Shown here piece by piece: positions 10,855 through 53,520 of a stretch of DNA of 64,000 bases. The first letter of the stretch is position 1; each line of letters starts with the position of its first letter. This DNA is from Desulfoscipio gibsoniae DSM 7213 (lineage in GTDB: Bacteria; Bacillota; Desulfotomaculia; Desulfotomaculales; Desulfallaceae), in assembly GCF_000233715.2 (NCBI RefSeq), contig NC_021184.1, positions 3,930,001 to 3,994,000 of the forward strand, read 5' to 3'. Under the pieces are notes generated by a model that was not told where the DNA came from, made no database searches, and saw only the letters and a list, made by a program, of their open reading frames with translations. Made by a program: the position numbers and the translations under genes.

Positions 10855-10909
10855 AATAATCACCTCTTCGTTAAATAACTCGACCAGCCTAAGCAATGGC
10901 AGACATGGG

Positions 10910-12650: not shown

Positions 12651-14288
12651 TTAGCTCGGAAAATTCATATGGTCCACATAGTTATCCATAAATTCCGGCG
12701 CATAAGAAAGTTCTAATGACTCTATATCATTCTGTAAAGTTATTATTTCATCGGCTGCAGCCTGGTTCACCATACAAAGCCGTGCACCTTCCTTAGCGGT
12801 GTTCCCGACAAATTCAACCTCCGAGTTTAGCCCCGAGGGTAAAAGACCAATTATTTTTAATGCCTCCTTTTTCAAATGATAACCAAAAGCGCCGGCAATA
12901 TAGACCTTTTCCACGGCATCAAGTTCCACTTTCAAACGTTGAAATAATATATCAATTGCGGCAGCAATTGCAGCTTTTGCCAACTGAACTTGACGAACAT
13001 CTTTCTGGGTTAGCATAGTCATTGAGTTAGAATCCAGTAAAAATGCAGGTTGCCCATCATGCTCAATTAGTCTCTGGGCCAGTAATCCAGGTAAATTAGT
13101 GGACTGGGCAAATCTTCCGGTAGGAAGGATAACCCCGGCCTTAACTAATTCAGCAACTAATTCCACCAGTCCACTCCCACACAACCCTTTTATTTTCGCT
13201 GAGCCAATTGTTACAATATAAATTTGCCCGTTCTCCTCGATCCGAACACCGGAAATAGCACCATCCTCAGCCCGGCAGCCGCAATAAATATTCATACCCT
13301 CTAAGGCCGGCCCGGCTGCTGAAGAAGTAGCGATCAGCTTTCCATTGACATTGGCAACTATTTCTCCATTCGTACCAATATCAATAAATAAAGCAGGTAC
13401 TGCTATTTTATGAAAATCTATTGCAATAACACCTGCAAGAATATCAGCACCAACAAAAGCAGACAAGGAAGGTAATAAACTCACAACGGCATTTGGAACA
13501 GCAATGCCCAGTTCAGTGGAATTATACTCTTGGTAGTCGACAAAGATGGGCTCATAGGGGGTTACTGCAAGAGGAAAGGGATCTACACCAACCAACAAGT
13601 GCAGCATTGTATTGTTTGCGGCAACTGTAATATGGTAAATTTCCTGTAACTGCACACCTTTTTCATTACATACTTTGGAAATTAAATTATTGATTCCATT
13701 AAGCACCAATTCCTTTAATTTTAAAACATTTTGCGCATACTGATGGGCATAAGTAATCCGTGTTATTACATCTGCACCATATTGAGTCTGTGGATTAAGA
13801 CAGGCTGAAGTTGTAATTTCTTTTCCATCAGAGTTCAGATCAATTAATCCGACCACTATACTGGTAGTGCCAATATCAACAGCAATTCCGTATGCACGTT
13901 TTGGTAAAAAGAAACTTTCACCGGACTTGCCAAGAATCCTTATAATTAACGGGTCAAAGATATATTCTTTGTTTTTCCCCCCTGAGATTGTCCTAAATTG
14001 CTGCTTTTCTGTTAAAAACACTTCTACATTTCCTAATACTTTTGCCTGACATGCCAGGCGCCAACTATCAGAAAGCATACTTCCCAGCCTTTCTTTTTCA
14101 TCAGTCTGCGGTTGACTCAGCATACCTGATGCTTGGACTAAACATTTACCGCAGGTACCCCTCCCGTTACACATCCCTTCCAAGGGTAAATTATTTTTTA
14201 CAGCTGTCTCGATAATAGTTGTGTTTTCAGGTACTTTAACCTTTACCCCCAATGGTTTAAATGTTATTTCACATAATTTCTCTTTCAT
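12651..14288 (-). CDS. Reductive activator of corrinoid proteins (RACo-like, 2Fe-2S + ASKHA ATPase)
   Basis: 545 residues if the ATG at 14288 is used; a GTG six bases upstream is the alternative. The N-terminal ~90 residues form a plant-type 2Fe-2S ferredoxin domain with CNGRGTCGKC and a later Cys (WRLACQAK). A linker leads to a C-terminal ASKHA ATPase domain with IAVDIGTTSIVVGLID at about 137-152 and FIDIGTNGEI. Proteins of this build use ATP to return accidentally oxidised Co(II) corrinoid to active Co(I). Here it would serve MtbC-type corrinoid proteins. A broken paralogue lies at 45530-45670. It ends with TAA. Confidence 0.9.
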   Translation of the reverse strand: MKEKLCEITFKPLGVKVKVPENTTIIETAVKNNLPLEGMCNGRGTCGKCLVQASGMLSQPQTDEKERLGSMLSDSWRLACQAKVLGNVEVFLTEKQQFRTISGGKNKEYIFDPLIIRILGKSGESFFLPKRAYGIAVDIGTTSIVVGLIDLNSDGKEITTSACLNPQTQYGADVITRITYAHQYAQNVLKLKELVLNGINNLISKVCNEKGVQLQEIYHITVAANNTMLHLLVGVDPFPLAVTPYEPIFVDYQEYNSTELGIAVPNAVVSLLPSLSAFVGADILAGVIAIDFHKIAVPALFIDIGTNGEIVANVNGKLIATSSAAGPALEGMNIYCGCRAEDGAISGVRIEENGQIYIVTIGSAKIKGLCGSGLVELVAELVKAGVILPTGRFAQSTNLPGLLAQRLIEHDGQPAFLLDSNSMTMLTQKDVRQVQLAKAAIAAAIDILFQRLKVELDAVEKVYIAGAFGYHLKKEALKIIGLLPSGLNSEVEFVGNTAKEGARLCMVNQAAADEIITLQNDIESLELSYAPEFMDNYVDHMNFPS

Positions 14289-14294
14289 TTTCAC

Positions 14295-17262: not shown

Positions 17263-17313
17263 GTAAGCGTAAAATAAGCCCCACCTCGTAAACAGGGTAG
17301 GGCACGACTTAAA

Positions 17314-18879
17314 CTATTTATTGTTTACTCGACAAGTCGAAGGCAAAGCAACCGACCAGGGAAGTAGCTCATCTAGGGCATTTCGGTTTTCGATATCTAT
17401 ATTGGGAAGCCTTTCAAAAAGATATTGCAGATAGCTAAACGGATTTAAGCCATTTTCCTTAGCCGATTCAACAATGCTGTAAATCGTTGCACTGGCATTG
17501 GCGCCACGCGGGGTGTTGGCAAATAGCCAATTTTTGCGTCCGATCACAAACGGTTTAATCGAACGCTCACTTCGATTGTTATCCAGCTCCAGTCGTCCGT
17601 CTTGCAGGAAGGCTGCGAGCTTGTTCCATTGGTTGTGGCAGTAATGAATAGCTTGACCAAAAGCGCTTTTAGGCAGCACTCTAGGACTTTGGTATTTTAG
17701 CCATGCTGAAAAAGCCTCTAGCAATGGACGGCTGCGCTCTTGGCGGGCTACATGGCGTTCCTCGGGAGTGGCCTCGCGAAGCTCATGTTCTATAGCAAAA
17801 AGTCGGTTGCAGAAATTCAGCCCCTCTTTGGCGGCTACTACTGCACCGCGCTGTTCAGCTGGTAAGGCTTTTAGCGCTTCATCAAACTTACGCCGGGCAT
17901 GGGCCCAGCATCCAACCAGAGTCACGTCCGGCAATCCATTGTAACCGGCATAGCCGTCTACATGCAAGTAACCCTTGAAGCCGGCTAAGAACCGGCGCGG
18001 ATGCTTGCTTGCCCGGGTCGTTTGGTAGTCGTAAAGAACCATTGCCGGCCCTGCCCGCCCGGTACGGTATAGCCATATGTAAGAGGTGCTTCCTGCTGAC
18101 CGGCCTTGTTCATGCAGCACCTGCAGAGTAGTCTCATCGGCATGCAGGATATCTTGTTTCAACAGATGCTCATGCATCCTATCGTAAAGTGGGCGAAGCC
18201 ATCTGTTGGCACCCTGGAGCATCCAATTGGCCAAGGTCTGACGGGACAGCCCTATTCCAAGACGGGCCAATTGCTGTTCCTGACGATAAAGCGGCATACC
18301 TTCAACATACTTTTGGGTCATGATGTGGGCCATAGCGGAAGGGGAAACCAGACTCCCCGGCAGTACAGGCGCCGGCATAGGTGCAGTCACGATAGGGGTT
18401 TTGGTGTCTTTTTGTTCGCAGCGGCGGCAAGCGTAGACGTGACGTACATGTCTGACGACACTTACCTGGGCCGGAATAATCTTAAGCTCTTGCCTGACCT
18501 CGGTGCTCATTTCATGTAATGGTCCACCGCAACATGAACATACCTGCTCTTGGGCAGGTAGATAGTAGTCGATGGTTTCCACCGGCAAATCTTCCAGCAG
18601 CTGCTCACGGTGTCCCTGTTTCTTACGGCGGCGGTAGGTAATTTCCTCAACGCTAGGTTCCTCTGAAGGCGGTTTAGCTTCTATTTCGGGCTCATTAAAA
18701 AACTGCAGCTGTAATTGCTCCGGTTGGCTCTGTTCACTGGAGCGACCGAAACGACGCTGTTGGCTTAGACGAAACTGTTCTTCAAACCATCTGACTTTAG
18801 CCATTAATTCAGCATTTTTTTGCTCCAACTCAGTGCATTTATTTTGAAGTTCTTCAACTATTTTAGCTGTGCTGTTCAT
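17314..18879 (-). CDS. tnpC: IS66 transposase TnpC
   Basis: 521 residues from the ATG at 18877-18879. An N-terminal coiled coil (about 1-40) is followed by a zinc-binding CSCCGGPL segment and the DDE catalytic domain. The latter shows [13 protein letters not shown] and [11 protein letters not shown] (aspartates) and [13 protein letters not shown] (glutamate). It has full family length and looks intact. It ends with TAG. Confidence 0.93.
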
Positions 18880-18945
18880 ATGGTTAATATTCGATATATA
18901 ACCATGAAAACCCTTTAAAATCAAGGATTTATCCCATGTTTTTAG

Positions 18946-19305
18946 TCATAAAATTGTTCTTGCCGTAACCTCGGGATGGGCTTGCTGTTGATTGAGCGAT
19001 AGACCATCCAATAGCCAACGTAACTCACGGTGGCTAACAGATGTAACCGTTCCCGCACTATCTTTGGCCGGCCATTGAAACTTTCCTTTCTCCAGCCGGC
19101 GATAATGAAGCCAAAAACCATTATGCTCCCACTGGAGGATCTTGAGTTTATCGCGTTTCCGGTTACAGAACACAAAGATGCAGGTAGAGAACGGGTCCAG
19201 TGCAAATGCTTCTTTTACTAAAACCGCCAATCCGTCAATTGATTTACGCAAGTCGGTGCTGCCGCAGGCCAGGTAAACCCGTTCCAGGCCAGTGTTGGTC
19301 AGCAT
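18946..19305 (-). CDS. tnpB: IS66 accessory protein TnpB
   Basis: 119 residues. It has the typical sequence RVYLACGSTDLRKSIDGLAV near the N-terminus and CNRKRDKLKILQWEHNGFWL in the middle. It overlaps tnpA by seven bases, suggesting translational coupling. It is required with TnpA for IS66 transposition in studied members. Confidence 0.92.
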   Translation of the reverse strand: MLTNTGLERVYLACGSTDLRKSIDGLAVLVKEAFALDPFSTCIFVFCNRKRDKLKILQWEHNGFWLHYRRLEKGKFQWPAKDSAGTVTSVSHRELRWLLDGLSLNQQQAHPEVTARTIL

Positions 19306-19610
19306 ACTTTAAGTGTTTGCACTACTTCTTTGAGTAATGCCGGATTAAAGCCAGGTTGCACTTCTATAACCGCAGGACCTACTTTAATCAATAATCCGTT
19401 TCCGGTGGGGTCGGACTCATTTATCTCCACTGACACCCACTGCGTCTGCGTAATTGATGGATTCTCTGCGGATTTAATCTTTTTTAGCCAATACCATAGT
19501 TGATTAGGTCTTATATTATGGGCTGCGCACCAAGCTGCTCCGCTTTGCCCGCTTGCTCTAAAATCGGCTATCCGGGTTTCCCATTCTTGCCGTAATTCTG
19601 ATTTGGCCAT
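19299..19610 (-). CDS. tnpA: IS66 accessory protein TnpA
   Basis: 103 residues. An N-terminal helix-turn-helix region covers RIADFRASGQSGAAWCAAHN and NQLWYWLKKIK, as in IS66 orfA proteins. It is the first gene of the element, and its end overlaps tnpB. Confidence 0.88.
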   Translation of the reverse strand: MAKSELRQEWETRIADFRASGQSGAAWCAAHNIRPNQLWYWLKKIKSAENPSITQTQWVSVEINESDPTGNGLLIKVGPAVIEVQPGFNPALLKEVVQTLKVC

Positions 19611-19695
19611 TGAATAATCCCCCCAATATGTTTGTTTGAGGAGATTATCTCATAAATAAAGTGGTAAACCCAGGTGTAATCTTTTTGACGCTTAC

Positions 19696-19823
19696 TCATA
19701 GATAATTGGAGTAAAAGACGTCCGTTGTAAGGTAAAAAACATCCTTTCCGGAATATAGTTAAATCCGCCCCTAAGTACTTCAAATGTAACTGGATCCAAT
19801 GTTTTTTCAAATTTTTTGGCCAT
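19696..19823 (-). pseudogene. hyuB: HyuB 5' fragment, upstream side of the IS66 insertion
   Basis: The ATG at 19821-19823 starts MAKKFEKTLDPVTFEVLRGG and reads to TPIIYE before running into the IS and an immediate TAA. It begins one base after the hyuA stop, so hyuA and hyuB were translationally coupled. Confidence 0.88.
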
Positions 19824-19824
19824 T

Positions 19825-21876
19825 TTACTCTCCCCCTTTATTCTCCAGCACAATATTCTTATACTCATCCAACGATACTGCCCAATTTGGAGTTATAACT
19901 ATACTTGACTCGTTCATCTCGATAATTGCCGGTCCTTCCAAGTAATGCCCATTCATTAATCGATCTATATCGTAAATTGGCGTATCTATGAATTTCCCGT
20001 CAAAATAAACTTCCCTTCTACCTTTTAGTGCCCTTTCGACTTCATATGTGGCTTTGGGATATGTGGGTAAACTTACAGAAGAATGGACGCCAACACCAAT
20101 AACCCTAATATTAACAATTTCTACATCGAATTCACTATTCGATGTAAAGTATTCTTTTCTGTGAACATCGTCAAAATCTTCCCGGATCATTTTTAGCTTA
20201 TTATCATCAAAATTGCGATCATCTTTAACCGGGACTGTTACTTCATAATTTTGGCCAACATATCTCATATCTAATTCTATAGATGTTGTAATACTGTTTT
20301 TGTCCACTCCTTGGCGTTCAACACTAACAACTATCTCTTTTTTCATATTAGCCACTGTATTATTTATTTTGGCAATATCCACGTTATTAAGAACCATGGG
20401 CATCGTTTTTTCAGCGGATGCTCTAATAGGCATCATCATGGCGCCCATTGCGGAAGCCACTCCGGACATAATGGGAATAGCTGCTTTCTTAATACCTAAT
20501 TCATCGGCAATAAAACATATATGCATTGACCCCGCCCCACCAAAAACAATAGGCATAAACTTTCTCGGATCTCTACCTCTTGAGGTGGTGACAAGGGAAT
20601 TGGCCATGGCCATATTCGCACTGCTGATTTTAATTGCACCTTCAGCGGCTTCCTCGACGCTTAAACCTAATGGATCAGCTATTTTTTCTTTGAAAACATT
20701 GATAGCCCGATCTAAATCCAATTCCATTTTACCGCCTAAGGTTTTGTCAATACGCCCTAATATTAAATTAGCATCTGTAACACTCGGTTGTTGCCCTCCC
20801 AACCCATAACAAACCGGTCCGGGCTTTGCTCCACTACTTTGTGGGCCTACTCTTAAAGACCCCCCCTCGTCAATCCAAATAAGGCTTCCGCCTCCCGTAC
20901 CAATAGACCTTACATCTGTCATGGGGATTGATAAGGGCATATCAAAATCAATTTCATAATCCGTAGTTCTTAAATACTCCCCATCCTCAATAATACATAC
21001 GTCGTAACTTGTCCCTCCCATGTCCTGAGTGAGAGCATTCTTTACACCTAATGATTGTCCACAAATTAAGCCGGCAAATGCACCGGCAGCAGGACCGGAT
21101 TGCAACAATAGTTCAGGACATTCTTTAATAACATCTGCCGTAGCAGTTCCGCCATCACCCTTAACAATTAAGAGTGTTCCTCGAAAACCAAGTTCTTTTA
21201 AATCTTTTTCCAGTTTATCCATATAATCAGAGATAATCGGTATTAGAAGTGTCCGAAGTGCCGTCGTAATCATACGCGGTAACTCGCGAAATTTGGGGGA
21301 GATATCTGTTGAAATAGATATGGGAGTACCAGGTAACTCTTTTTGTAGAATTTCTTTGGCTCTTTTTTCGTTTGCCGGATTAGTATAAGCATTATTAAAG
21401 GTTATACCTACTGAATCTACCTGCATTGCTTTGAGTTCCCGAGCAAGTTCGATTAAAGCTGTTTTATCAACTTCTTCTACTACCCTACCATCGGAATCAA
21501 CCTTTTCCGAAATTTCAAATCTGGAACGTCGTTCAATTAGTGGTTTTGGTGCCACCCCATACATATCAATAATATGTTGATTCCGCGCCCTTCTGATTTC
21601 CAAGGTGTCTCTAAATCCCTTTGTGGCAATAAAGGCTACTTTGGGCCACCACCCATAATAAGTCCGCACAAGAATGGAATTTGTCGCAATTGTAGTTCCA
21701 TACACGAATACATCAATATCCTCTATTTTGATGTCGGCTGCTCTCATAGCATTAATAAGCCCTTCAGCACTACCCGGTGTTGTAAGACGCTTTCCTATAT
21801 ATACTTTGTTTTTCTTGTCATCAAGACCATAAACATCCGTGAATGTACCTCCTACGTCTGCCCCTACTTTAAGCAT
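19825..21876 (-). CDS. hyuA: HyuA (hydantoinase/oxoprolinase A)
   Basis: 683 residues, full length. It has VGADVGGTFTDVYGLDDKK at the N-terminus (ASKHA phosphate-binding loop), TQDMGGTSYDVCIIEDG at about 290, and GRDPRKFMPIVFGGAGSMHI at about 440. The family uses ATP to open hydantoin-like or oxoproline rings, or to carboxylate ketones. The presence of an AmiS/UreI-like channel upstream hints at an amide or urea-type substrate or product. N-methylhydantoin (from creatinine), which yields methylated amines, would fit the rest of the window, but that is speculation. It is intact although its partner hyuB is split. It ends with TAA. Confidence 0.88.
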   Translation of the reverse strand: MLKVGADVGGTFTDVYGLDDKKNKVYIGKRLTTPGSAEGLINAMRAADIKIEDIDVFVYGTTIATNSILVRTYYGWWPKVAFIATKGFRDTLEIRRARNQHIIDMYGVAPKPLIERRSRFEISEKVDSDGRVVEEVDKTALIELARELKAMQVDSVGITFNNAYTNPANEKRAKEILQKELPGTPISISTDISPKFRELPRMITTALRTLLIPIISDYMDKLEKDLKELGFRGTLLIVKGDGGTATADVIKECPELLLQSGPAAGAFAGLICGQSLGVKNALTQDMGGTSYDVCIIEDGEYLRTTDYEIDFDMPLSIPMTDVRSIGTGGGSLIWIDEGGSLRVGPQSSGAKPGPVCYGLGGQQPSVTDANLILGRIDKTLGGKMELDLDRAINVFKEKIADPLGLSVEEAAEGAIKISSANMAMANSLVTTSRGRDPRKFMPIVFGGAGSMHICFIADELGIKKAAIPIMSGVASAMGAMMMPIRASAEKTMPMVLNNVDIAKINNTVANMKKEIVVSVERQGVDKNSITTSIELDMRYVGQNYEVTVPVKDDRNFDDNKLKMIREDFDDVHRKEYFTSNSEFDVEIVNIRVIGVGVHSSVSLPTYPKATYEVERALKGRREVYFDGKFIDTPIYDIDRLMNGHYLEGPAIIEMNESSIVITPNWAVSLDEYKNIVLENKGGE

Positions 21877-28515: not shown

Positions 28516-29817
28516 TTAACCTTGGCATTTGGCAACGGCCTGCTCCAGGACATCCAATCCCCGGTCAAGCTGCTCATCGGTAATGGCAAGCGGGACCAGC
28601 GTTCTGATGACGTTGCTGAAAATGCCCGCTCCGATAACAATGACACCGTTTTTCATACAATATTTAGAGACGGCAGCCGCCTCGTCCTTGGCCGGTTCCT
28701 TGGTTTCACTGTTCTTGACCAGTTCCATGGCATTCATGGCACCCAGTCCGCGAACATCACCGATGACCGGATATTTCTCCTTCATTTCGAGCATGCGGGC
28801 GCGCGTTTTTTCACCAATCTCCCGGGCACGTTCCACCAGTTTTTCCTGCTGCATGTAGTCAATGGTGGCCAACGCGGCTGCGCAGGATACCGGGTTGCCA
28901 CCATAAGTACCGCCGATATGTCCCGGATCGGGAGCGTTCATAATTTCGGCCTTACCTACAACACCGCTGAGGGGCATACCTGAGGCAATCGATTTGGCCA
29001 TGGTCATCAGATCGGGTTCGAGTCCCCAGTGCTCGCAGGCGAACATCTTACCGGTCCGGCCAAAACCTGTTTGAACTTCGTCAGCGATCAGAACAATACC
29101 GTGCTTATCGCAGATTTTCCTCAGACCCGGCAGGAATTCCGGTGGCGGAACGATGAAGCCGCCCTCACCCTGAATAGGTTCGATAATTATTGCTGCAACG
29201 TTCTCGGGAACAACTTCGGCGGCAAACATTCTGTCGAATTGCTCCAAGCAGTGCATGCCGCAGCCGGGATAAGTCGACCTGTAGTAGCAGCGGTAGCAAT
29301 AAGCAGAGGGGATTTTATAAATCTCGGGAGCGTAAGGACCAAACCCGAATTTGTAAGGTCTAACTTTACTGGTAAGGCTCATGGTCATTAAGGTGCGACC
29401 GTGAAACGCGCATTCAAAAGAGATTACACCGGTCCTTTTGGTATGGAACCTGGCAATTTTTACGGCGTTTTCCACGCACTCGGCACCACTGTTGACAAAC
29501 ATAGCTCTTTTTTCATAACTACCCGGTGAGATTTCAATTAGCTTTTCTGCCAGATCAAGATATGGCTCGTACATGGTAACCATAAAACATGTATGCAGTA
29601 GTTTTTCCGCCTGCTCCTTAATAGCAGCAACTACGGGTGGGGGGCAGTGCCCGGCATTGAGAGTGCCGATACCGGCGTAAAAGTCAATATATTCGTTGCC
29701 TTCCACGTCAATTATGGTCGCTCCCCTGGCCTCCTTAACAAAAATATTGGTAGAATTGGAGATACCACGGGCCACCAGGCTGTTTTTTCTTGCCAGAAGC
29801 TCTTCATTTCTTCCCAT
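28516..29817 (-). CDS. Class III aminotransferase (4-aminobutyrate/omega-amine type), copy 1
   Basis: 433 residues, full length, with AAAGGAGG before the ATG. The signature LIADEVQTGFGRTGKMFACE is at about 240, followed by LMTMAKSIASGMPLSGVVG with the PLP lysine. Cysteine-rich YCYRCYYRSTYPGCGMHCLE at about 175-195 is unusual and shared with the second copy. It would convert a primary amine or omega-amino acid to an aldehyde. It lies upstream of the molybdenum hydroxylase and downstream of the broken tungsten oxidoreductase. It is closely related to 47905-49206. It ends with TAA. Confidence 0.88.
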   Translation of the reverse strand: MGRNEELLARKNSLVARGISNSTNIFVKEARGATIIDVEGNEYIDFYAGIGTLNAGHCPPPVVAAIKEQAEKLLHTCFMVTMYEPYLDLAEKLIEISPGSYEKRAMFVNSGAECVENAVKIARFHTKRTGVISFECAFHGRTLMTMSLTSKVRPYKFGFGPYAPEIYKIPSAYCYRCYYRSTYPGCGMHCLEQFDRMFAAEVVPENVAAIIIEPIQGEGGFIVPPPEFLPGLRKICDKHGIVLIADEVQTGFGRTGKMFACEHWGLEPDLMTMAKSIASGMPLSGVVGKAEIMNAPDPGHIGGTYGGNPVSCAAALATIDYMQQEKLVERAREIGEKTRARMLEMKEKYPVIGDVRGLGAMNAMELVKNSETKEPAKDEAAAVSKYCMKNGVIVIGAGIFSNVIRTLVPLAITDEQLDRGLDVLEQAVAKCQG

Positions 29818-31551: not shown

Positions 31552-32199
31552 TTACTTCAACGCTAAAAGTTCCAGAGCCTTTTCAACGGCGTCAGCGGCA
31601 TCTTCTGCATACGCATCTGCGCCGATTTTTTCTGCCCAACGCTGGGTAACGGGCGCACCGCCAACCATTGTTTTAAACCTATCTCTAAGATTACGGGCCC
31701 GCAGCTCGTCTTCCAGTTTCTTCTGGGCCATAATGGTGGTAGTTAGTAAAGCACTGGTGCCGATAATATCGGCATTTACTTCCAGAGCCTTTTCTATGAT
31801 TTTATCAGTTGAAACATCCCGCCCAAGATCAATAACCTCGATGCCCTGGGTTTTTAGGAGGGAAACAACGATGCCTTTTCCAATATCATGGGCATCTCCT
31901 TCAACTGTCGCTATTAAAAAGGTGCCTTTTTTGGTGGACCCGCCTTTTTCAGCAATAGCCTCTTCCAATATTCCCGTTGCAGCCTTCATAGTTTCGGCAG
32001 CCAGTATTAACTGGGGAAGAAAAACCTCACCTGTTCCGAAACGCTCACCCACTTCCCTTATTCCAACGCTAAAGCCTTCGTTTAGCATTGTTACAGGATC
32101 CACCCCGGCTTCAACTGCCTTTTTAGCAACTTCGGTTGCAGCTTCACGGTTATAATCTAATATAGAATCTATCGCTTCTTTTATTAATTCCTGACTCAA
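31552..32199 (-). CDS. mtbC: Dimethylamine corrinoid protein MtbC
   Basis: 215 residues. An N-terminal four-helix cap domain (about 1-90) is followed by a B12-binding Rossmann domain. The cobalt-ligating DxHxxG motif is seen in VEGDAHDIGKGIV at about 120-132, and MVGGAPVTQRWAEKIGADAY near the C-terminus. It accepts the methyl group from dimethylamine via MtbB and passes it on. It begins 35 bases after the mtbB stop and is co-transcribed with it. Remnants of paralogues lie at 50412-50640 and 53565-53810. It ends with TAA. Confidence 0.93.
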   Translation of the reverse strand: MSQELIKEAIDSILDYNREAATEVAKKAVEAGVDPVTMLNEGFSVGIREVGERFGTGEVFLPQLILAAETMKAATGILEEAIAEKGGSTKKGTFLIATVEGDAHDIGKGIVVSLLKTQGIEVIDLGRDVSTDKIIEKALEVNADIIGTSALLTTTIMAQKKLEDELRARNLRDRFKTMVGGAPVTQRWAEKIGADAYAEDAADAVEKALELLALK

Positions 32200-32234: not shown

Positions 32235-33620
32235 TTATAAGCCTGCTTTGGACTTGAACCTGTTAACGGAATTGATTTCAATATCTAGCAGTTTGGCAAT
32301 CCGCATCTTGGCTTCCATACCTATGGCAGCCCCAGGACGGGCCAAAACATGCCCTATGTTCAATTCCTCTCTCAGTTCTTTCATTAAGGCCTCATCAGAA
32401 AGATCGAATAAAGATACTCTCAACTTACTGGCCACATATTTTTTGGCTTCCCTGATTTTTTTACCCTTGGCGGTAACACGTGCTACCAGATCTCCGGCAG
32501 TACGGACTCCACCCATCCCGGAAGCCATTTCGTGACCGAAAGCCATGGCGAAAGTATCCCCGTGGCCAATCTATAACCCGTCAGCTTTTCCGATTTCAAC
32601 CAGGGCCTTTGATGCCCTGGACATGGCGTCCATAGGGCAGGTATTGGTAAGGGGGATTCCCCCTACCCCCATCCCTGCATTGGGGTGAATAGGAATGCTT
32701 GCCGCTTCAGCACAGGCTTTGGTAAATGTTACTGCCCTGGCGAGGTTCCACGGAAAAGATTTACTGCTGTTAGTGTTGATAACAGGTCCAAAGATGGTTA
32801 CCCCGGCTTTTTCAGCAATTTTGACCTGCTGGTGTGGGTATAAACCGGCCAGTCTCTGGCCGTCGTAGGTTAATTCTCCATGCATGCCAAGGACAAATTC
32901 GCCCGCCATGCCCATTTCAATTTCCATATCGGGAAACTTGTTTTTCAAGTATTCCACCGCCTTTAGGGCAGCCAGGAAATCGGCATCACCAGAAGCCCCG
33001 ACGGAGTCAAAGTTCATACCGTCAGCTCCGCCTTCATACATGATTTCTGAAACATATATCATATCCTTTGTTGCATGCTTCGTAGCTTCTTCCTGAGCTT
33101 CCTGGGCCTCTTTAATTTTGGCCATTGGCAGCAACTCAGCCCAGTTTTCAATAGGTCCATCTGGTTTGGTATATAAGCCAACATTAGACATAGCTCCATA
33201 TAAGACCGGAATGATAGTGTTTAATTGAACCTGTTCCATTAACTGCCTTTCCTCATGGGCAATAGCTTTTACAGGCTTATAACTGTAATCTATATGAGCA
33301 AGCTCCATGGAATCAGAGGCAAAAGCCCGCTCATGGGCAAGAATAGTTGCAAGCCTGTCGACGGGAACCCCTCCCCTGATTCCAAATTTCAGGGTCCCTG
33401 CGTCAAAACTATGGGTAACCTCATTACCGCGTTCAACACTAACCACCTTATTGGGGTCGGTCATAATCTCATAAAGCCGCTCCATGTCTTCTGCTGTTAG
33501 CTCTGGCACTTTGCCGCGTTTTACAGCTTCTTGCATGCCAGCTTCCAAATCGGCCCTGACTTCGGCTTCCGACATCCAGATACCAGAGCCATCCCCCATA
33601 CGGGTGAAAATTTTACTCAT
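32235..33620 (-). CDS. mtbB: Dimethylamine methyltransferase MtbB, contains pyrrolysine (TAG codon 350)
   Basis: 461 residues when TAG at 32571-32573 is read as pyrrolysine. The frame before it ends EIGKADGL and the frame after continues IGHGDTFAMAFGHEMASG, both in register, as in archaeal MtbB where Pyl lies at the equivalent place (residue 356 of 467 in Methanosarcina barkeri, from memory). It removes a methyl group from dimethylamine and puts it on MtbC. The ATG has AAGGAG upstream. A sigma-54 promoter lies 57 bases upstream of the start, with three palindromic putative activator sites farther up. The real stop is TAA at 32235-32237. The pyl genes in the same window support decoding. Confidence 0.96.
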
Positions 33621-33763: not shown

Positions 33764-33881
33764 AATGAAATTTTTCATCAACTCAAAAAAGTTTTGAATT
33801 TAAGAAATTGTCTGATACTTAGAGCCATACTAAGGCTCGTAATTGATGATTTTTATCATTGTACCAATGAGGATTTTCATT
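33764..33881. promoter_or_regulatory. Three palindromic putative activator sites upstream of mtbB
   Basis: Sites at 33764-33779 (AATGAAATTTTTCATC), 33845-33860 (GATGATTTTTATCATT) and 33866-33881 (AATGAGGATTTTCATT) follow AATGA-N6-TCATT with at most one change. They lie 70-200 bases upstream of the -24/-12 promoter, as expected for a sigma-54 activator. Confidence 0.7.
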
Positions 33882-34170
33882 ACTTACTGCAATATTCCTG
33901 GTAAGCTTGATCTATGGAAGCACCTAATTTGGCAACAAGCTCATCAAATTGTTTTTCCGTAATGACCACAGACGGCGATATCTGCAGGCCATCGTCAATG
34001 AGGGGCCTTAAAATCAATCCGTTTTCCCACCCAAGATAAGATACGCGCTTGGCAAAGCCTGCTTTGACACATTCGAAAGTACAGCTTTCTTTTTCCTTTC
34101 CCCAGGTACCAAAAGACCTACGGTAATATGTCAAGACCCTAAGGTCAAAAATTTCAAGTAAAATTCCTAA
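33880..34170 (-). pseudogene. Aminotransferase fragment with internal deletion
   Basis: The C-terminal 80 codons (AGFAKRVSYLGWENGL onward) are paralogous to the aminotransferase at 9466-10854. They join directly to YYRRSFGTWGKEKESCTFEC, a segment that lies about 215 residues earlier in the intact protein. The catalytic middle is missing. Confidence 0.8.
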
Positions 34171-34244
34171 AAAAGGCAACAAAAAACACCCTGTTTCCAA
34201 CAATGCATGGAACCAAATAACAGGACTGGGAATTAGTAAATGTG

Positions 34245-37235: not shown

Positions 37236-37679
37236 ATGGATTTTTCCTGTTTTTCAAGGAGTAGCATTTATGATTTTCTAATGTGGCTTAAAAATGCCAG
37301 GAACAGTTCAACACAGACGCTTAACCTTAGGCTATCAGCCATTAAAGCATTTCTAAAGTACTGCAGTGAGGAAGATATAGAACTGATGCCAGTATACCTT
37401 GATGTTTCCAGCATACATGCCTTCAAAGGAAAAAAGCCTTGTGTAGAATACCTGACGCAGGTACAGTTGAAGCTCTTGTTCTCACTGCCGGATATAACAA
37501 CACGGCTTGGCAGGCGTGACCGTTTCTTCCTGATTTTTGCCTACGAGACAGGAGCAAGGATGCAGGAACTGCTCAATCTGAAAATCAGTTGTATCATCCG
37601 CAGCGATGCAGCTTCAAACAATTCCGTTGCCAGAATTGCATGTGCTATTAGGCTACTGCTGACGGAACAGCAGGTTTAA
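37236..37679 (+). pseudogene. Tyrosine recombinase (XerC/D-like), truncated
   Basis: 147 codons. The N-terminal SAM-like domain (LNLRLSAIKAFLKYCSEEDI) and the start of the catalytic domain with the first active arginine (FAYETGARMQELLNLKIS) are present. The His-x-x-Arg and tyrosine boxes are missing, so the protein cannot recombine DNA. Confidence 0.65.
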
Positions 37680-43625: not shown

Positions 43626-43697
43626 TGGCGGGGAGTCCGGGAGTTACACCCGGCTGCATAGATTTAGAGTCTATGTGATCCTTCCGATCAACCCCCC
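43626..43697 (-). tRNA. pylT: tRNA-Pyl (anticodon CUA, amber suppressor)
   Basis: 72 nucleotides including encoded CCA. The acceptor stem is GGGGGGU with ACUCCCC. The anticodon stem has six base pairs (CAUAGA/UCUAUG) around the loop CUCUAAA, giving anticodon CUA, and the D region is very small. These are hallmarks of tRNA-Pyl, and the sequence closely resembles the Desulfitobacterium pylT as I recall it. It lies 16 bases downstream of pylD and upstream of a sigma-54 regulator, so it is probably processed from the pylSc-pylD transcript. Confidence 0.97.
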
Positions 43698-43713: not shown

Positions 43714-44517
43714 TTATTTAAGAACCATTGCCAACATTGTAGCAACTCCTATTTGAAGTGGATCATGTACAAGGCGTGAACTGTATTCTATTCTGCTTTC
43801 CGGTGTAAGTCCAAGGGGTACTCCTGGTGCTGCAATTGCAGCTCTCGGATGTAAATAGTTTCGATCCAAAAAATCTGCTTGGGGTGTAGCATCTAAAATG
43901 TATTGATAATTTGGCAGTATCTTATATAAGTCCCTTTCTACACAAACGCCTGATAAATCTATAACCTTAGACTGATCAGAATCGACTACTGTTACATAAG
44001 CGCCAAATTCCTTTAGAATATCAATAGCTGCGCGTCCTACGGGTCCAGCGCCAATAACTAAAGCTTTTTTACCTTTTAATCCTGAGGCAAGTCCGTAAAG
44101 TACTGAACCAAATCCTCGTCCTGTCGCTTCAGTATTATCAATCAGATGTCCATTAAACTTGTTAAATGCCAAGAAACGGTTATCATCAGCCATGAACAAT
44201 ACACTTGCACCCTGTTCTAGACCCTCTGCAAACCCTGCAACATCAGTCGCTTCCGAAATAAAAACTTCAAAGCCCAAATATTTGATAATAGCAGCGACAG
44301 ATTGTACGAAGCCACCTATCAAACCTTTTCCTGCAGTAATAGGGATGACTGCAATCGAGTGATCTTTTACTAATGTATCAAAATATGTAACTTTTATCCC
44401 AGCTGCCTTACAGGCAATTTCCTTTAAACTATATCCTAATTTAGACAGTAATTCATCTTCATAATCACGAAGTTCTGTCTCCAAACCAAGCAGGTTAGTT
44501 TCTGTAAGTCTGGTCAA
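43714..44517 (-). CDS. pylD: Pyrrolysine synthase PylD
   Basis: 267 residues from a TTG start with GGAGG eight bases upstream. It has a Rossmann NAD-binding segment, GKKALVIGAGPVGRAAIDIL, at about residues 150-170, and a PylD-typical N-terminal domain with LGYSLKEIACKAAG. It oxidises 3-methylornithyl-lysine, which then cyclises to pyrrolysine. It follows pylSc by 28 bases and precedes pylT. It ends with TAA. Confidence 0.95.
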   Translation of the reverse strand: MTRLTETNLLGLETELRDYEDELLSKLGYSLKEIACKAAGIKVTYFDTLVKDHSIAVIPITAGKGLIGGFVQSVAAIIKYLGFEVFISEATDVAGFAEGLEQGASVLFMADDNRFLAFNKFNGHLIDNTEATGRGFGSVLYGLASGLKGKKALVIGAGPVGRAAIDILKEFGAYVTVVDSDQSKVIDLSGVCVERDLYKILPNYQYILDATPQADFLDRNYLHPRAAIAAPGVPLGLTPESRIEYSSRLVHDPLQIGVATMLAMVLK

Positions 44518-44545: not shown

Positions 44546-45379
44546 CTAAATGTTCAAAAGGGAACCGTCTAAATAAGTTAAGCCACGCCCTACCCGGCGT
44601 ATATTACGGTGTCCCTGCAAGGTCATAGCTAACCGTTCCAAACCAAAGCCAATTCCGACCCACGGCTCAAATATACCCCATTGCTCATCCATCTTCAAAG
44701 GACCAAAAGCCCCGGAACCCAATTCCAAATCGTCGAAAACAACATCCACTGTGATTCCATATATTTCCGATTCAGTTTCTACAAATTCATAATTTTTTAC
44801 CCCAATTTCTTCCATAACCAATGAGCCTAATTCTTTTAAGCGTTCCGTTTGTTTACCCTTATCCACACCTAGTTCTACAAGGTTAAGCATAGTGAATTCA
44901 TTTAAATGCTGTGCCCCCTGCGATTCTTTTCGAAAGCATGGACCTATCTCAAAAATTCGCACAGGTTTGGACCATAATCTATCCAATATTTTTAAATAAT
45001 GATATAGATTAGGCGCCAGCATCGGACGCAAACATTTATTGTTATCCACCCAAAAAACCTGTTTATATAAAGGATGTTCGGGCGTAATTGTCATTTTGTG
45101 AAGCATTGCTTTAGGCAATATGATTGGAGTATTGACCTGAACAAATCCAGTTTTACAGAGTAAATTGGAAAGCTGGATTTCCAAACTGGAAAGCAAAGGA
45201 CGATGAATAACTTCTTTTAGTTCAAGTAAATGGTCTTTGTTCTTTTTGACCAGTTCTTTTTCGATTTTCTGAAACGTTTGGTCCCTCTTTTGCTTATCCT
45301 GAAATCTTAGGTCCAGAAGCTCAGATTTTCCATTTAATTCAATTAATTTTTGTTTCTGAGAAATGCTCCAATTGATCAA
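44546..45379 (-). CDS. pylSc: Pyrrolysyl-tRNA synthetase catalytic subunit PylSc
   Basis: 277 residues from a TTG start behind GGAGGAG. This is only the class II catalytic domain, as in bacteria; the tRNA-binding part is encoded separately as pylSn at 50736. Motif 2 is visible in EIGPCFRKESQGAQHLNEFT with the following MLNLVELG, and motif 3 in GIGFGLERLAMTLQGH. The amino-acid pocket segment MLAPNLYHYLKILDRLW is conserved. It charges tRNA-Pyl with pyrrolysine. Its own gene ends with TAG followed by CTC TAA, so misreading would add only two residues. Confidence 0.96.
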   Translation of the reverse strand: MINWSISQKQKLIELNGKSELLDLRFQDKQKRDQTFQKIEKELVKKNKDHLLELKEVIHRPLLSSLEIQLSNLLCKTGFVQVNTPIILPKAMLHKMTITPEHPLYKQVFWVDNNKCLRPMLAPNLYHYLKILDRLWSKPVRIFEIGPCFRKESQGAQHLNEFTMLNLVELGVDKGKQTERLKELGSLVMEEIGVKNYEFVETESEIYGITVDVVFDDLELGSGAFGPLKMDEQWGIFEPWVGIGFGLERLAMTLQGHRNIRRVGRGLTYLDGSLLNI

Positions 45380-47904: not shown

Positions 47905-49206
47905 TTATTTTGAGGCGTGGGCTATAGCCTGCTCCAGAACGTCCAGACCCCGCTCCAGCTGCTCGTCGGTAATAACCAGAGGAATCAGGGTGCAGATTAC
48001 GTTGCTGAAGATACCCGCGCTGATGACAATAACACCGTTGTCGACGCAGTACTTGGTAACGGCCGCCGTCGCTTCCTTGGCCGGCTCCTTGGTTTCCCTG
48101 GCTTTAACCAGCTCGATGGCGTTCATGGCGCCAAGACCACGCACATCACCGATGATGGGGTATTTCTCTTTCATTTCCAGCATCTTTTCCCTGGTCTTAT
48201 TACCGATTACATTGGCGCGTTCCATCAGCTTCTCCTGCTGAATGTAGTCAATGGTGGCCAAGGCTGCCGCGCAGGATACCGGATTGCCACCGTAAGTTCC
48301 GCCGATGTGTCCCGGGTCGGGGGCGTTCATGATCTCAGCCTTACCGACTACACCACTAAGAGGCATGCCGACGGCAATTGACTTGGCGACTGTCATTAGG
48401 TCGGGTTCCAAGCCCCAGTGTTCGCAGGCAAACATTTTACCGGTCCGGGCAAAGCCTGTTTGAACTTCGTCGGCAATTAATACGATACCGTGCTTATCGC
48501 AGATTTTTCTCAGTCCGGGCATAAATTCCGGCGGCGGAACAATAAAGCCACCTTCACCCTGAACAGGTTCGATGATCATTGCCGCAATGTTTTCTGGTGC
48601 TACTTCGGCGGCAAACATTCTGTCGAATTGTTCAAGGCAGTGCATGCCACAGCCCGGGTAGGTTGATCTGTAGTAGCAGCGGTAGCAATAAGCGGAGGGA
48701 ATTTTATAAACTTCGGGAGCGTAGGGGCCAAAGCCGAATTTGTAGGGCTTAACCTTACTGGTCAGGCTCATAGTCATCAAGGTGCGGCCGTGAAACGCGC
48801 ATTCAAAAGAGATAACCCCGGTTCTTTTGGTATGGAACCTGGATATTTTAACGGCGTTTTCAACACATTCGGCACCGCTGTTGACGAACATGGCTCTTTT
48901 TTCATAGCTGCCCGGTGAGATTTCAATTAGCTTTTCTGCCAGATCTAAATAAGGCTCGTACATGGTAACCATAAAGCAAGTATGCAAAAGTTTTTCCGCC
49001 TGCTCCTTGATAGCAGCAACTACAGGCGGGGGACAGTGACCAGCGTTGAGTGTGCCAATACCGGCGTAAAAGTCAATATATTCGTTACCTTCCACATCAA
49101 TTATAGTTGCACCCCTGGCCTCCTTAGCAAAAATTCAGGTGGAATTAGAGATGCCGCGGGCCACCAGCGCATTCTTTCTTGCCAGAAGCTCTTCAGTTCT
49201 TCCCAT
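47905..49206 (-). pseudogene. Class III aminotransferase, copy 2, with in-frame TGA at codon 24
   Basis: It is near-identical to the gene at 28516-29817 over its whole length, with ATG at 49204-49206, LIADEVQTGFARTGKMFACE and MTVAKSIAVGMPLSGVVG. Codon 24 is TGA (49135-49137) where copy 1 has AAT (GISNST-N-IF). Translation could restart only at a downstream GTG or other site, such as the valine before EGNEYIDFYAGIGTLNAG, giving a 396-residue protein that still contains the whole catalytic core but lacks the N-terminal arm. It is either a recent pseudogene, a shortened active gene or a sequence error. Confidence 0.8.
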
Positions 49207-49544: not shown

Positions 49545-50345
49545 TTAGGATTCATATAATCCATTGCGATGTGCAGTTAAGTAGTTGGTACAATAAGTAT
49601 CTTTACCTAAAAGGGTCTGACCGGCATGAACAAATCCCATCATACTTTTATCCAAAGGATTAAGAATGTAACTGTCCATACCTACTGTCATAGTTTGAAC
49701 CATAAACAACTGATTAAGAATTTTTCGATTTGGAAGCCCGAATGAAACATTACTCAAGCCACATACTTTGTGAACATTGGGATATTTTTCGGAAATTAGT
49801 CTGACCGTTTCAAGAACTTCAAGTCCTGCCTTATCACCGGTACTTACAGGTTTCACTAGCGGATCAAAGTATATATCATCCTCAGGAACACCTGCCTTAG
49901 TTAAATTTTCATACAGATTAACGGCCACTTTCATTCTATCCTCAGCCGTTTCAGGCATGCCACTGTCATCCATACACAAAGCAACAACTTTAGTCTTATA
50001 TTTCAAGACCATAGGGAAAATTTGTTCATAACGTTCCTTTTCACCAGTAATCGAATTAACAAGGGGCTGCCCGTAGCGAGCTAATGCCAATCCAGCTTCA
50101 ATAGCTAAAGGATTTGGACTGTCAATACATAGTGGTACTTGTACAGCCTCCTGGACAGTATTAACAAGCCATTCCATGGTTTCAACCTCATCAAAAACCA
50201 TTGTTCCGCAGTTCACATCAATATAGTTAGCCCCTGCCGCAACTTCATCTTGTGCAATTTTCTTAATATAATCAGCATCTTTTTTTTCAACTGCTTCATT
50301 AATGATCTTTCTACTCGTATTAATAAGCTCTCCTATGATCAACAT
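49545..50345 (-). CDS. Methylcorrinoid:tetrahydrofolate methyltransferase (MtgA/AcsE-like)
   Basis: 266 residues forming a pterin-binding TIM barrel. It has MLIIGELINTSRKIINEAVE at the start, NYIDVNCGTMVFDEVETMEW, and VCGLSNVSFGLPNRKILNQL near the end (pterin-binding asparagine region). It likely moves methyl groups between corrinoid protein and tetrahydrofolate, as MtgA does in betaine-using Desulfitobacterium. Here it would take the methyl group from MtbC into the folate pool. A corrinoid-protein remnant lies just upstream. It ends with TAA. Confidence 0.88.
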   Translation of the reverse strand: MLIIGELINTSRKIINEAVEKKDADYIKKIAQDEVAAGANYIDVNCGTMVFDEVETMEWLVNTVQEAVQVPLCIDSPNPLAIEAGLALARYGQPLVNSITGEKERYEQIFPMVLKYKTKVVALCMDDSGMPETAEDRMKVAVNLYENLTKAGVPEDDIYFDPLVKPVSTGDKAGLEVLETVRLISEKYPNVHKVCGLSNVSFGLPNRKILNQLFMVQTMTVGMDSYILNPLDKSMMGFVHAGQTLLGKDTYCTNYLTAHRNGLYES

Positions 50346-50735: not shown

Positions 50736-51095
50736 TCATTTCATCAACTTTAAGCTTACTGACTGTTTTGAATAAAGCTGAGAACCATAATGCTGCTTAA
50801 AAAAGGTAGAGGAAAATTTATTAAGCTTCCAGTCAGGTATTTTGCAATCTTTGCAGGAACCAACAACCCATTTATTGCGAATCCAGCGTGCTGCTCTTCC
50901 ATTTTTTGAGTTATGCACTAATATCTTTTTTTCGCAATGTGTTGTGATATAAGCATACTCACCCTTTGTTTCCATCTCTTTAATTCCGTGCAAAGTTCCA
51001 TTTCTTGAAGGCCAAAGTTTTATCTTAGCTAACAAAAGTAAAAAATCCACTCGTTTCCGGTAATATTTTTTTTTGGCTTGTTTTTTATCTGTCAT
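50736..51095 (-). CDS. pylSn: Pyrrolysyl-tRNA synthetase tRNA-binding subunit PylSn
   Basis: 119 residues from the ATG at 51093-51095, chosen for its GGAGG eight bases upstream; an ATG 27 bases earlier is the alternative. It has the PylSn pattern KIKLWPSRNGTLHGIKEMET, CEKKILVHNSKNGRAARWIR and KDCKIPDWKLNKFSS. It binds tRNA-Pyl and helps PylSc. It lies about 5.4 kb from pylSc, next to pylC and pylB. It is basic, consistent with RNA binding. It ends with TGA. Confidence 0.93.
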   Translation of the reverse strand: MTDKKQAKKKYYRKRVDFLLLLAKIKLWPSRNGTLHGIKEMETKGEYAYITTHCEKKILVHNSKNGRAARWIRNKWVVGSCKDCKIPDWKLNKFSSTFFKQHYGSQLYSKQSVSLKLMK

Positions 51096-51242
51096 ACCAG
51101 TTTCCTCCATAATTATACCCATGGGGAACTCTGATCCCTCCCAAAGTTAGTAAATCCTACCGGGTAGTCTGCAGGATTACATCATTCTTAGGATTGTGTT
51201 CAGCTATAAAGATTGTTCTGGGATTTAAACTGAAATTTGAAA

Positions 51243-52409
51243 TTAATTGTTCGGAAAGGGATCAAGATATAAATTCAATTGACAATGCTTCATAATGTTA
51301 GCAATAACATCACAACGTTTTTGCCAAGCTTCCCAACGTGTATTGCCAGTAATAATCAACGTAGCTACCCATTGCCTAATCCCAACCGAATAATTGGTCA
51401 GCGCTTCATCTGCGCCAAAAAAGTCTTCCGTTAAATATAAAGGACCGGATCCACCCATAATATGCTCACCTATAGTTTCGATCCGGTCATCTCTGACCCA
51501 AACATGTTCGTAAATCACAGCGTACTCATTACCAGGATCAACAACATTCACGATTGGGGTTTGCTGTTTAACCCAAACATCATATAAACTCTCCAACATG
51601 TTAATACCAGTTGATTTATAAACTACAGTAGGTGTCTGGCTCGGTAAACGGGCATCAATTTCCAGTACTTTAAGTACTCCATGGTGTTCAATAACCTCCA
51701 CATCCATAATTCCTTTTAGATTAAGCAGGCGGGCGAGCCGTGATGCCATTTTCCGAAAGTTTTTTTCAAGAGTGTCATCTAATACCGTTGGGGCAGAAAC
51801 TCTTTTGCAATCATATCCTGCATCCATTGCCAAATCAGTCACCTGAAAAGTCACGGGAATTCCGTTAAAAGCCATAACTTCCAGTGAATAGGACGGACCC
51901 TCCAGAAATTCTTGAATAATCCAGCTTTCGTTATAATCCTTTTGCGTGAGCAAATGCTCAAATTCAAATGGATCATAAACTTTTTTTACCCCTTGACTAC
52001 CACTAAGCGAAGATGGTTTTATAATTACCGGCAGTTCACAATTTGGCCAGTAGGTAGGAAATGGAATGTGATATTTTGCAAAAAGTTCATCAGATTTTTT
52101 TTTAGATGACGAAATCTCATAAGCCTCACTGTTAAAGGCTACTGGACACCCTGTACGTAATGTTATCTGGTTTAATAGTGATAAAACCGTTTGATCTTCT
52201 ATAGCTGGAATAACTAAATCTACTTTCTGACAAATATCTGACAGTACATCCGAGTTATGCAAAATATCGACGGATAAAAATTGATCACATAACTCACTTG
52301 CTGGGGAGTTCCTGTTTTTATCAAGTACAATAACTTCCCATCCTGCTTTATGTGCCAGATAGGTTGCCTCAATTCCTTGTAACTTCCCGCCAACAACTGC
52401 AATTTTCAT
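51243..52409 (-). CDS. pylC: 3-methylornithine-lysine ligase PylC
   Basis: 388 residues from the ATG at 52407-52409, one base after the pylB stop. It is an ATP-grasp enzyme, with MKIAVVGGKLQGIEATYLAH at the start, PVIIKPSSLSGSQGVKKVYD in the ATP-binding region and VLEIDARLPSQTPTVVYKST near the metal site. It joins 3-methylornithine to lysine using ATP, the second step of pyrrolysine synthesis. It is tightly coupled to pylB. It ends with TAA. Confidence 0.95.
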   Translation of the reverse strand: MKIAVVGGKLQGIEATYLAHKAGWEVIVLDKNRNSPASELCDQFLSVDILHNSDVLSDICQKVDLVIPAIEDQTVLSLLNQITLRTGCPVAFNSEAYEISSSKKKSDELFAKYHIPFPTYWPNCELPVIIKPSSLSGSQGVKKVYDPFEFEHLLTQKDYNESWIIQEFLEGPSYSLEVMAFNGIPVTFQVTDLAMDAGYDCKRVSAPTVLDDTLEKNFRKMASRLARLLNLKGIMDVEVIEHHGVLKVLEIDARLPSQTPTVVYKSTGINMLESLYDVWVKQQTPIVNVVDPGNEYAVIYEHVWVRDDRIETIGEHIMGGSGPLYLTEDFFGADEALTNYSVGIRQWVATLIITGNTRWEAWQKRCDVIANIMKHCQLNLYLDPFPNN

Positions 52410-52410
52410 C

Positions 52411-53520
52411 TCAGCCACCAATTTCGCTCATGCAATGAATCGTTAAACTGCTCCGTTTGTTCAATACCCAATTTTTATATTCTTTTTTTGATGCAGCTTT
52501 TAAATCAAGATCCTTCAATACAGGTAATATCCCTTTAACTGTACGTGCTCCTTGGTTAATATCTTTAGTACTTTGGGCAACGCCGGCAAGACCCATGTAC
52601 GGAGGAATTAACGAAGTAATAACATTGGCTCCTGCATTTAATCTGGCCTGTAGACCTTCTATACCGTCAACATCTAATGAAGCCGGAATTAAGCGGTCAT
52701 GGAACAGCAAACGCAATATTGCAATCACTTTTAGTTCAACCTGACGGTTTGGTGTAGGCCACTCACTCATGGCACTTCCATCTTGAGGTACAAAACTCAT
52801 AACTCTGACCTGTTGAGCCCCAAGCATATTCATCTTTTCTAGAGAAGTCGCTATATCTGACCAAGACTCTCCGACTCCGACCATGATTCCCTCTTCAGCC
52901 AGCATTCCCAATTCAAGTGCCGTTTTTTTACTATGATAACGCAGGTCATAACTTTGGCTCAGTCGAAGTTTAGTAAAAAGGTTCCTGTTATGAGTTTCTT
53001 GATAGCAAGCATACCAATCAGCTCCTGCTTTCATTACCTCTTGTAACATTTTTTCTGAAGCAACTCCAGGCGATATCATCACATGCAAATTGGTTAACCG
53101 TTTAACTTCTCGGACAATATGGGCTAACTCTGCAACTCCTTTCCGATCCCTAAAGTAAGGATCTTCACCCATGGTGAGATCTATCAGGTGTACTCCTGAA
53201 TTAGCTAAACTCACTGCGGCTTGCAAAATTTCTTCCGGGGATTTCCGGTATCGATGAGGAAGAGAATTTGTACGCCGATAAAAGCAGAAGGAGCAATCAT
53301 TACGACACCAAGTTGAAAAATATATAAACCCATATAAAAATATTTTGTTAGAAAAATGTTTTTCTCTAATCAACCGGGCAACCCGGAAAAGTTCCTTTAA
53401 GTCTTGCTTCCTAGATAACTTAAGTAAAAAAATAACTTCTTCCCTGGACAATACAAAACCGTTTAAAGCCTTATCCAGAATATCGTTTAAACTAATTTGG
53501 CACCTAATTGTTTTGATCAC
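52411..53520 (-). CDS. pylB: 3-methylornithine synthase PylB (radical SAM)
   Basis: 369 residues from a GTG start with AGGATG upstream. The radical SAM cluster motif CRNDCSFCFY is at about residues 72-81, and the family region HLIDLTMGEDPYFRDRKGVA follows. The end has LIPASLDVDGIEGLQARLNA and VITSLIPPYMGLAGVAQST. It converts lysine to 3-methylornithine. It comes after a truncated mtbC and is the first intact gene behind the sigma-54 promoter at 53872-53887. It ends with TGA. Confidence 0.96.
   Translation of the reverse strand: MIKTIRCQISLNDILDKALNGFVLSREEVIFLLKLSRKQDLKELFRVARLIREKHFSNKIFLYGFIYFSTWCRNDCSFCFYRRTNSLPHRYRKSPEEILQAAVSLANSGVHLIDLTMGEDPYFRDRKGVAELAHIVREVKRLTNLHVMISPGVASEKMLQEVMKAGADWYACYQETHNRNLFTKLRLSQSYDLRYHSKKTALELGMLAEEGIMVGVGESWSDIATSLEKMNMLGAQQVRVMSFVPQDGSAMSEWPTPNRQVELKVIAILRLLFHDRLIPASLDVDGIEGLQARLNAGANVITSLIPPYMGLAGVAQSTKDINQGARTVKGILPVLKDLDLKAASKKEYKNWVLNKRSSLTIHCMSEIGG

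Follow-up and report, generated by a model that had tools for sequence, protein, structure and literature searches.

A predicted pyrrolysine codon in mtbB of Desulfoscipio gibsoniae DSM 7213 and a conserved RNA hairpin downstream of it

The mtbB gene of Desulfoscipio gibsoniae DSM 7213 is predicted to encode a dimethylamine:corrinoid methyltransferase in which an in-frame UAG codon specifies pyrrolysine at residue 350 (probability of about 0.93, judged from the sequence). In bacterial copies of the gene, a hairpin placed 69-96 nt past this codon is maintained by selection, as indicated by covariation at third codon positions. The DNA analyzed (64,000 nt, referred to as the window) comprises bases 3930001-3994000 of one 4,855,529-base contig; the features discussed are collected in Table 1.

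Table 1. Features of the window related to mtbB, pyrrolysine coding and methyl transfer
Feature	Coordinates	Strand	Remarks
RamA/AcsV-like corrinoid reductive activase	12651..14294	-	Distant, putative role; NF040756 348 bits, TIGR04270 117 bits, both below cut-off
mtbC-like corrinoid protein gene	31552..32199	-	35 nt after mtbB; TIGR02370 231.1 bits, cut-off 215.3
mtbB	32235..33620	-	461 codons + TAA, single in-frame TAG
Rfam PYLIS_2 (RF02509) match	32474..32573	-	49.1 bits, gathering 36
Conserved RNA hairpin, 69-96 nt from U of UAG	32478..32505	-	Window copy forms 10/12 pairs
In-frame TAG, predicted pyrrolysine, residue 350	32571..32573	-	80/80 named loci fetched; predicted barrel strand 348-351
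Class III aminotransferase, C-terminal remnant, upstream of mtbB	33880..34203	-	Homologue directly upstream of mtbB in L029, L021
pylT, tRNA-Pyl (CUA)	43626..43697	-	ARAGORN, anticodon CTA
pylD	43714..44517	-	TIGR03911 246 bits, cut-off 150
pylSc	44546..45379	-	TIGR02367 338 bits, cut-off 178
Corrinoid:tetrahydrofolate-type methyltransferase	49545..50345	-	In pyl cluster; NF005719 379.5 bits, cut-off 259
pylSn	50736..51122	-	TIGR03912 123 bits, cut-off 51
pylC	51243..52421	-	TIGR03909 458 bits, cut-off 248
pylB	52411..53520	-	TIGR03910 486 bits, cut-off 348

The mtbB gene and the pyrrolysine coding system

The upstream part of mtbB is an open reading frame of 349 codons (33620..32571, minus strand) halted by TAG at 32573-32571, beyond which the same frame continues to a TAA (32237-32235), giving 461 residues in all, with the TAG as residue 350. 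A preliminary description of this DNA had taken the flanking frames for two parts of a dimethylamine methyltransferase, joined in register without lost residues and closed by TAA, with tRNA-Pyl in the same window, and the present analysis bears this out. The Pfam family Dimeth_Pyl covers residues 6-457 of 461 (656 bits), the dimethylamine methyltransferase equivalog TIGR02368 matches the same residues at 553.3 bits (cut-off 369.1), an alignment of 13 bacterial MtbB copies has no gap at the TAG site, and ARAGORN recognized the tRNA.

The genome paper of D. gibsoniae lists mtbB as a possible dimethylamine methyltransferase, and the word pyrrolysine is absent from its main text (PMC4148979). A literature search coupling "pyrrolysine" with "gibsoniae" found only PMC3639795, in a table of which the organism appears as a potential pyrrolysine user with pylS and a methyltransferase, and with a dash for tRNA-Pyl, in contrast to the tRNA detected here.

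The pyrrolysine system of the window is composed of tRNA-Pyl (CUA), a split synthetase (PylSn/PylSc), PylB, PylC and PylD, all of the proteins scoring above curated cut-offs. Pyrrolysine would be made from lysine by PylB, PylC and PylD and loaded onto tRNA-Pyl(CUA) by PylSc and PylSn, and ordinary elongation, competing with termination, would then place it at UAG; this is the simple model of amber suppression by Pyl-tRNA that has been argued for archaea (PMC2933860). The pylSc gene itself stops at TAG, with TAA one codon later, and read-through would extend the protein by two residues. No pyrrolysine methylamine methyltransferase other than MtbB was found in the genome, where searches for the MtmB and MttB families gave no match. 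The genome is thus a minimal case of pyrrolysine use, in which a single codon may be the reason for retaining the whole pyl cassette.

An AlphaFold model of MtbB with Lys in place of Pyl (mean pLDDT 94.6, pTM 0.93) predicts a barrel in which residue 350 lies in strand 348-351. The best solved matches to this barrel are cobalamin-linked methyltransferases, namely MetH and the Methanosarcina mazei methyltransferase 4ay7/4ay8 (Z about 18, 249-261 residues, rmsd 3.3-3.6). A solved MtbB structure was sought by sequence and none was found (one chance match, E 0.23); MtmB and MttB are absent among the Foldseek and VIA-align matches listed, which has no bearing on a difference in fold. Pyrrolysine on the last barrel strand would bind the amine, and the methyl group would pass to the neighboring corrinoid protein.

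Conservation and reading of the UAG codon

The TAG lies at the UAG position of the family, in agreement with the preliminary description, which had placed it where archaeal MtbB has pyrrolysine: the UAG of the PYLIS_2 model is in register with it (archaeal sequences being compared through the Pfam, TIGRFAM and Rfam models), and TAG occupies the homologous mtbB codon in 80/80 related loci (the best 80 of 151), which belong to several phyla according to record titles. These comprise 76 loci read by motif scan, three read by alignment (L033, L044 and L068) and L021, whose TAG was read immediately before a run of N. The named loci were found with two DNA patterns, one of which required a Lys codon at the TAG site; no Lys variant was found with it among the best 80 of 151 loci, and there are no archaeal-titled records among the best 80 of 151 mtbB relatives in named genomes. 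Viral contigs and plasmids were also searched for mtbB relatives and none were found.

Across this genome and 199 relatives there are 13 family matches, that of the window among them, and each contains exactly one internal TAG; PylD is present in all 5 other MtbB-bearing genomes among the 199. MtbB and PylD are both absent from 6 same-genus and 9 same-family genomes, which suggests lateral gain or repeated loss.

A codon alignment was built from 78 loci and the window, with L021 (run of N) and L051 (broken match) excluded from the 80. No further stops occur downstream of the TAG in the 78 loci, and the differences at the three codon positions are 0.35/0.23/0.62 downstream and 0.31/0.22/0.63 upstream, i.e., substitutions after the TAG are third-position biased, like those before it; dS is saturated or undefined in most pairs. 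In the same loci, the codon preceding UAG is TTG or TTA in 66/78, and its sharing (0.52 vs. 0.21 expected) marks a second constraint, at UAG itself.

UAG also serves as a stop codon. TAG terminates 9/38 other gene calls of the window (counted on a gene list assigned within this analysis), so that termination at codon 350 must compete. The stop of mtbB itself is TAA in 46, TGA in 18 and TAG in 13 of the 77 relatives with a readable end; UAG can thus act as sense and as stop within one mRNA. In two of the loci (L012 and L093) mtbB ends in UAG with the frame open into mtbC, and read-through would yield an MtbB-MtbC fusion. Elsewhere in the window, a set of Wadjet-type defense genes (58116-63993, minus strand) comprises JetD, which ends with TAG TAG, JetC, JetB and part of JetA, which runs off the window end.

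The intact frame, the equivalog score, the full pyl set with tRNA-Pyl and the TAG in 80/80 loci make it very likely that the mtbB UAG is read as pyrrolysine, so the earlier view of this TAG as a recoding site stands, and we infer that pyrrolysine is inserted at MtbB residue 350 in vivo. Were the TAG a plain nonsense mutation, mtbB would be a pseudogene yielding only a 349-residue fragment; the working UAG stops of the window and the gene fragments and transposase genes in the neighborhood would suit such a view, but the same-codon TAG across relatives, the downstream region with its coding-like substitution and lack of other stops, and the complete pyl system render it very improbable. It is equally hard to credit that UAG 350 is read through near-cognate suppression as a standard residue (Gln, Lys or Tyr). 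The identity of the residue is deduced from sequence, which leaves some room for this reading, but the window contains a dedicated CUA tRNA with intact synthetase and biosynthesis genes, and no fetched relative has a sense codon in place of TAG, although such replacements should occur if a standard residue sufficed. In the metaproteome of Ca. Formimonas warabiya, seven pyrrolysine-containing proteins of the MttB superfamily were reported (PMC9768040), and this organism also has MtbB loci with TAG (L020, L028, L044 and L093). As regards D. gibsoniae, aminotransferase remnants and transposase genes mark damaged surroundings of mtbB; the pathway may therefore be decaying, despite intact mtbB and pyl genes.

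Methyl acceptor and substrate

As is usual, mtbB is paired with a corrinoid protein gene that follows it; the corrinoid protein reaches 215.3 of the 350 bits required by the MtbC equivalog NF041607, missing that cut-off. The corrinoid:tetrahydrofolate-type methyltransferase of the pyl cluster is flanked by pylSn and an aminotransferase gene; a 75% identical relative adjoins pylB in Ca. Formimonas warabiya (L020); corrinoid:pterin methyltransferases have been noted near bacterial pyrrolysine genes (PMC2933860). This enzyme is likely to perform the methyl acceptor step and would carry the methyl group onward. The authors of the D. gibsoniae genome paper argued that growth on dimethylamine depends on mtbA, and they did not detect that gene (PMC4148979). 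With a folate-type methyltransferase encoded in the pyl cluster, this published argument against dimethylamine use is not decisive, and the gene content supports methyl transfer to folate in this pathway. A URO-D family protein encoded beside pylB (54315-55280, plus strand) is weakly MtaA/CmuA-like and has no homologue in the loci compared; it scores 45.1 of 400 with NF040654 and 34.5 of 235.4 with TIGR01463, far below the cut-offs of these MtaA/MtbA models.

Compared with archaeal and bacterial MtbB (TIGR02368/PF09505; Methanosarcina barkeri mtbB1-3), the gene shares the full-length match, the single in-frame UAG and the adjoining corrinoid gene. It differs from M. barkeri mtbB1-3 in its bacterial host, in the probable acceptor enzyme, which is folate-type rather than the CoM-methylating MtbA, and in encoding the sole pyrrolysine methylamine methyltransferase detected. 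Since MtmB was not found in the genome, monomethylamine would be an end product.

The substrate is less certain than the codon, given the aminotransferase and alanine dehydrogenase context of the nearest mtbB relatives and the remnant in the window. Pyrrolysine might be read at UAG while MtbB acts on another secondary N-methyl amine, whose primary amine product would be degraded by an aminotransferase, alanine dehydrogenase and aldehyde:ferredoxin oxidoreductase. Such a substrate would fit several contexts: (i) L029, the nearest locus by identity (83%; best 80 of 151), has alanine dehydrogenase and class III aminotransferase genes directly upstream of mtbB, (ii) L021 (81%) has an aminotransferase gene upstream and an aldehyde oxidoreductase gene downstream, (iii) ald and aminotransferase genes are intact at 9466-12034 of the window, which also has remnants of that aminotransferase (33880 and 23642) and, within the pyl cluster, a further aminotransferase and an oxidoreductase, and (iv) the genome is without detected MtmB and MttB. 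We nevertheless regard it as unlikely, since MtbB passes the dimethylamine methyltransferase equivalog cut-off, L021 carries after mtbC an mttB with an in-frame TAG, i.e., the usual methylamine set, and the close relatives L015-L020 show no such aminotransferase in the stretches compared.

Several further elements were observed in the window (all on the minus strand): two aminotransferase genes encoding 91% identical proteins (28516-29817 and 47905-49095), a recent duplication flanking mtbB; a hydantoinase/oxoprolinase-like pair split by an IS66-type element, named by inspection (15538-21876); and a match to the Rfam Group II intron D1-D4-7 (37569-37674; 60.3 bits).

The hairpin downstream of the UAG codon

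The hairpin was analyzed in 74 non-redundant bacterial mtbB genes including that of the window, with L029 (truncated) and near-duplicates excluded; subsets were A2 (49 loci and the window) and A4 (62/74). Synonymous-codon sharing in the 74 genes has its gene-wide peak at residues 370-378 (0.55 observed vs. 0.28 expected; z 6.1 among 448 nine-codon windows). When third-position pairs at most 200 nt apart were scanned, the nested pairs 72-93 and 75-90 ranked first of the 25,641 antiparallel two-step candidates (z 15.2). These pairs belong to a helix of 12 positions (69-80/85-96), in which 81.1% of cells are paired vs. 72.2% in shuffled alignments (0/500 as high) and at most 42.0% when the helix is slid, and 108 cells are changed on both sides vs. 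51 in shuffles. Parsimony on a FastTree protein tree counted 15 (72-93) and 16 (75-90) two-sided changes from one standard pair to another, and 11 and 13 breaks of the respective pairs. The helix is imperfect, as pairs 73-92, 74-91 and 69-96 form in only 40, 46 and 41 of the 74 genes.

The window copy has a folding energy of -12.7 kcal/mol (z -2.36). When synonymous codons are resampled, z is only -1.3 for this copy, with a median of -1.9 for the 74 genes and 69/74 below zero. Hairpin folds were also obtained for four other copies, at z values of -3.8 to -5.2 (five of six folds count, the L021 stretch being non-homologous), and RNAalifold alone predicts just the four innermost pairs. A hairpin-only model (R1) run on 53 sources gave 33 strong matches, all in mtbB and 3' of the in-frame UAG, including five from loci fetched for mttB that were recognized as mtbB by a translation check; three further matches have E from 0.24 to 0.65. 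In 38 non-redundant pyrrolysine mttB genes (from 41 loci, after removal of L124, whose longest frame is not mttB, and then of near-duplicates) no peak comparable to the mtbB hairpin was found. The best downstream helix candidate of mttB lies 255-294 nt after UAG and is weak (z 5.5, excess pairing 0.47).

The hairpin resembles bacterial SECIS in being an mRNA structure 3' of a recoded stop; bacterial SECIS lies close to UGA and is bound by SelB, and we know of no pyrrolysine-specific elongation factor. The Rfam family PYLIS_2, considered here together with the mtbB structure predicted in PMC3639795, matches over its full length, with the UAG of the model falling on the mtbB TAG, and has no other match in the whole genome; its second stem (positions 73-92) is the core of the 69-96 helix. 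The helix supported here is longer (12 positions vs. 7 pairs), and the first stem (positions 7-38), which adjoins UAG and is largely broken in the window copy, is not supported in the 74 bacterial genes: 60.2% of its cells pair, vs. 58.8% in shuffles, and pairs with two-sided change are fewer than shuffling gives; counter to this rejection, it contains 43 two-sided cells vs. 23.7 shuffled, 26 of the 43 in one pair. With the mtmB PYLIS (RF01982) the hairpin shares a post-UAG structure proposed to help pyrrolysine insertion, but it sits 69-96 nt away and covaries. According to PMC2933860, the mtmB element is non-essential, its covariance is limited, and nothing resembling it was seen in mtbB. 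A consensus structure for mtbB is put forward in PMC3639795 and described there as a reasonable approximation. Three papers were found that mention both PYLIS and mtbB, and the word "covariation" occurs in none of them.

The role of the hairpin is the least certain step of the proposed mechanism, in which it would favor sense reading of UAG. As a true cis-acting pyrrolysine signal, it would keep the internal UAG sense while the second, terminal UAG of 13/77 relatives still acts as a stop; we advance this as a tentative possibility. Since the hairpin begins 69 nt past UAG, it is too distant to touch a ribosome waiting there, and the routes that we can suggest are guesses: a queue of ribosomes might form behind one slowed at the hairpin, or the hairpin might protect the mRNA beyond UAG. 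The same distance speaks for a hairpin unrelated to UAG reading, i.e., one serving mRNA stability or processing, or a DNA-level inverted repeat, to which we give even odds. G-U cells are not above chance (47 seen vs. 53.8 expected), so the strand of the hairpin is only weakly indicated; however, A-C cells, the counterpart of G-U on the opposite strand, are below expectation (15 seen vs. 26.8), which leans to sense RNA, and the confinement of strong model matches to mtbB, 3' of the in-frame UAG, likewise argues against an unrelated function.

Recoding of the mtbB codon is of a known kind and extends a known pattern, of which this codon is a confirmed case; the hairpin is the part that deserves experiment. 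Whether an mRNA signal directs pyrrolysine insertion is a long-standing question, for which the available candidates were the non-essential mtmB element (PMC2933860) and an mtbB structure that was only predicted (PMC3639795). Strong third-position covariation of one hairpin is now seen across 74 bacterial genes, and genes in which UAG occurs both as a sense codon and as the stop provide an internal control for a signal. If the hairpin is such a signal, the meaning of UAG in these bacteria would depend at each site on mRNA structure as well as on competition between tRNA-Pyl and release factor.
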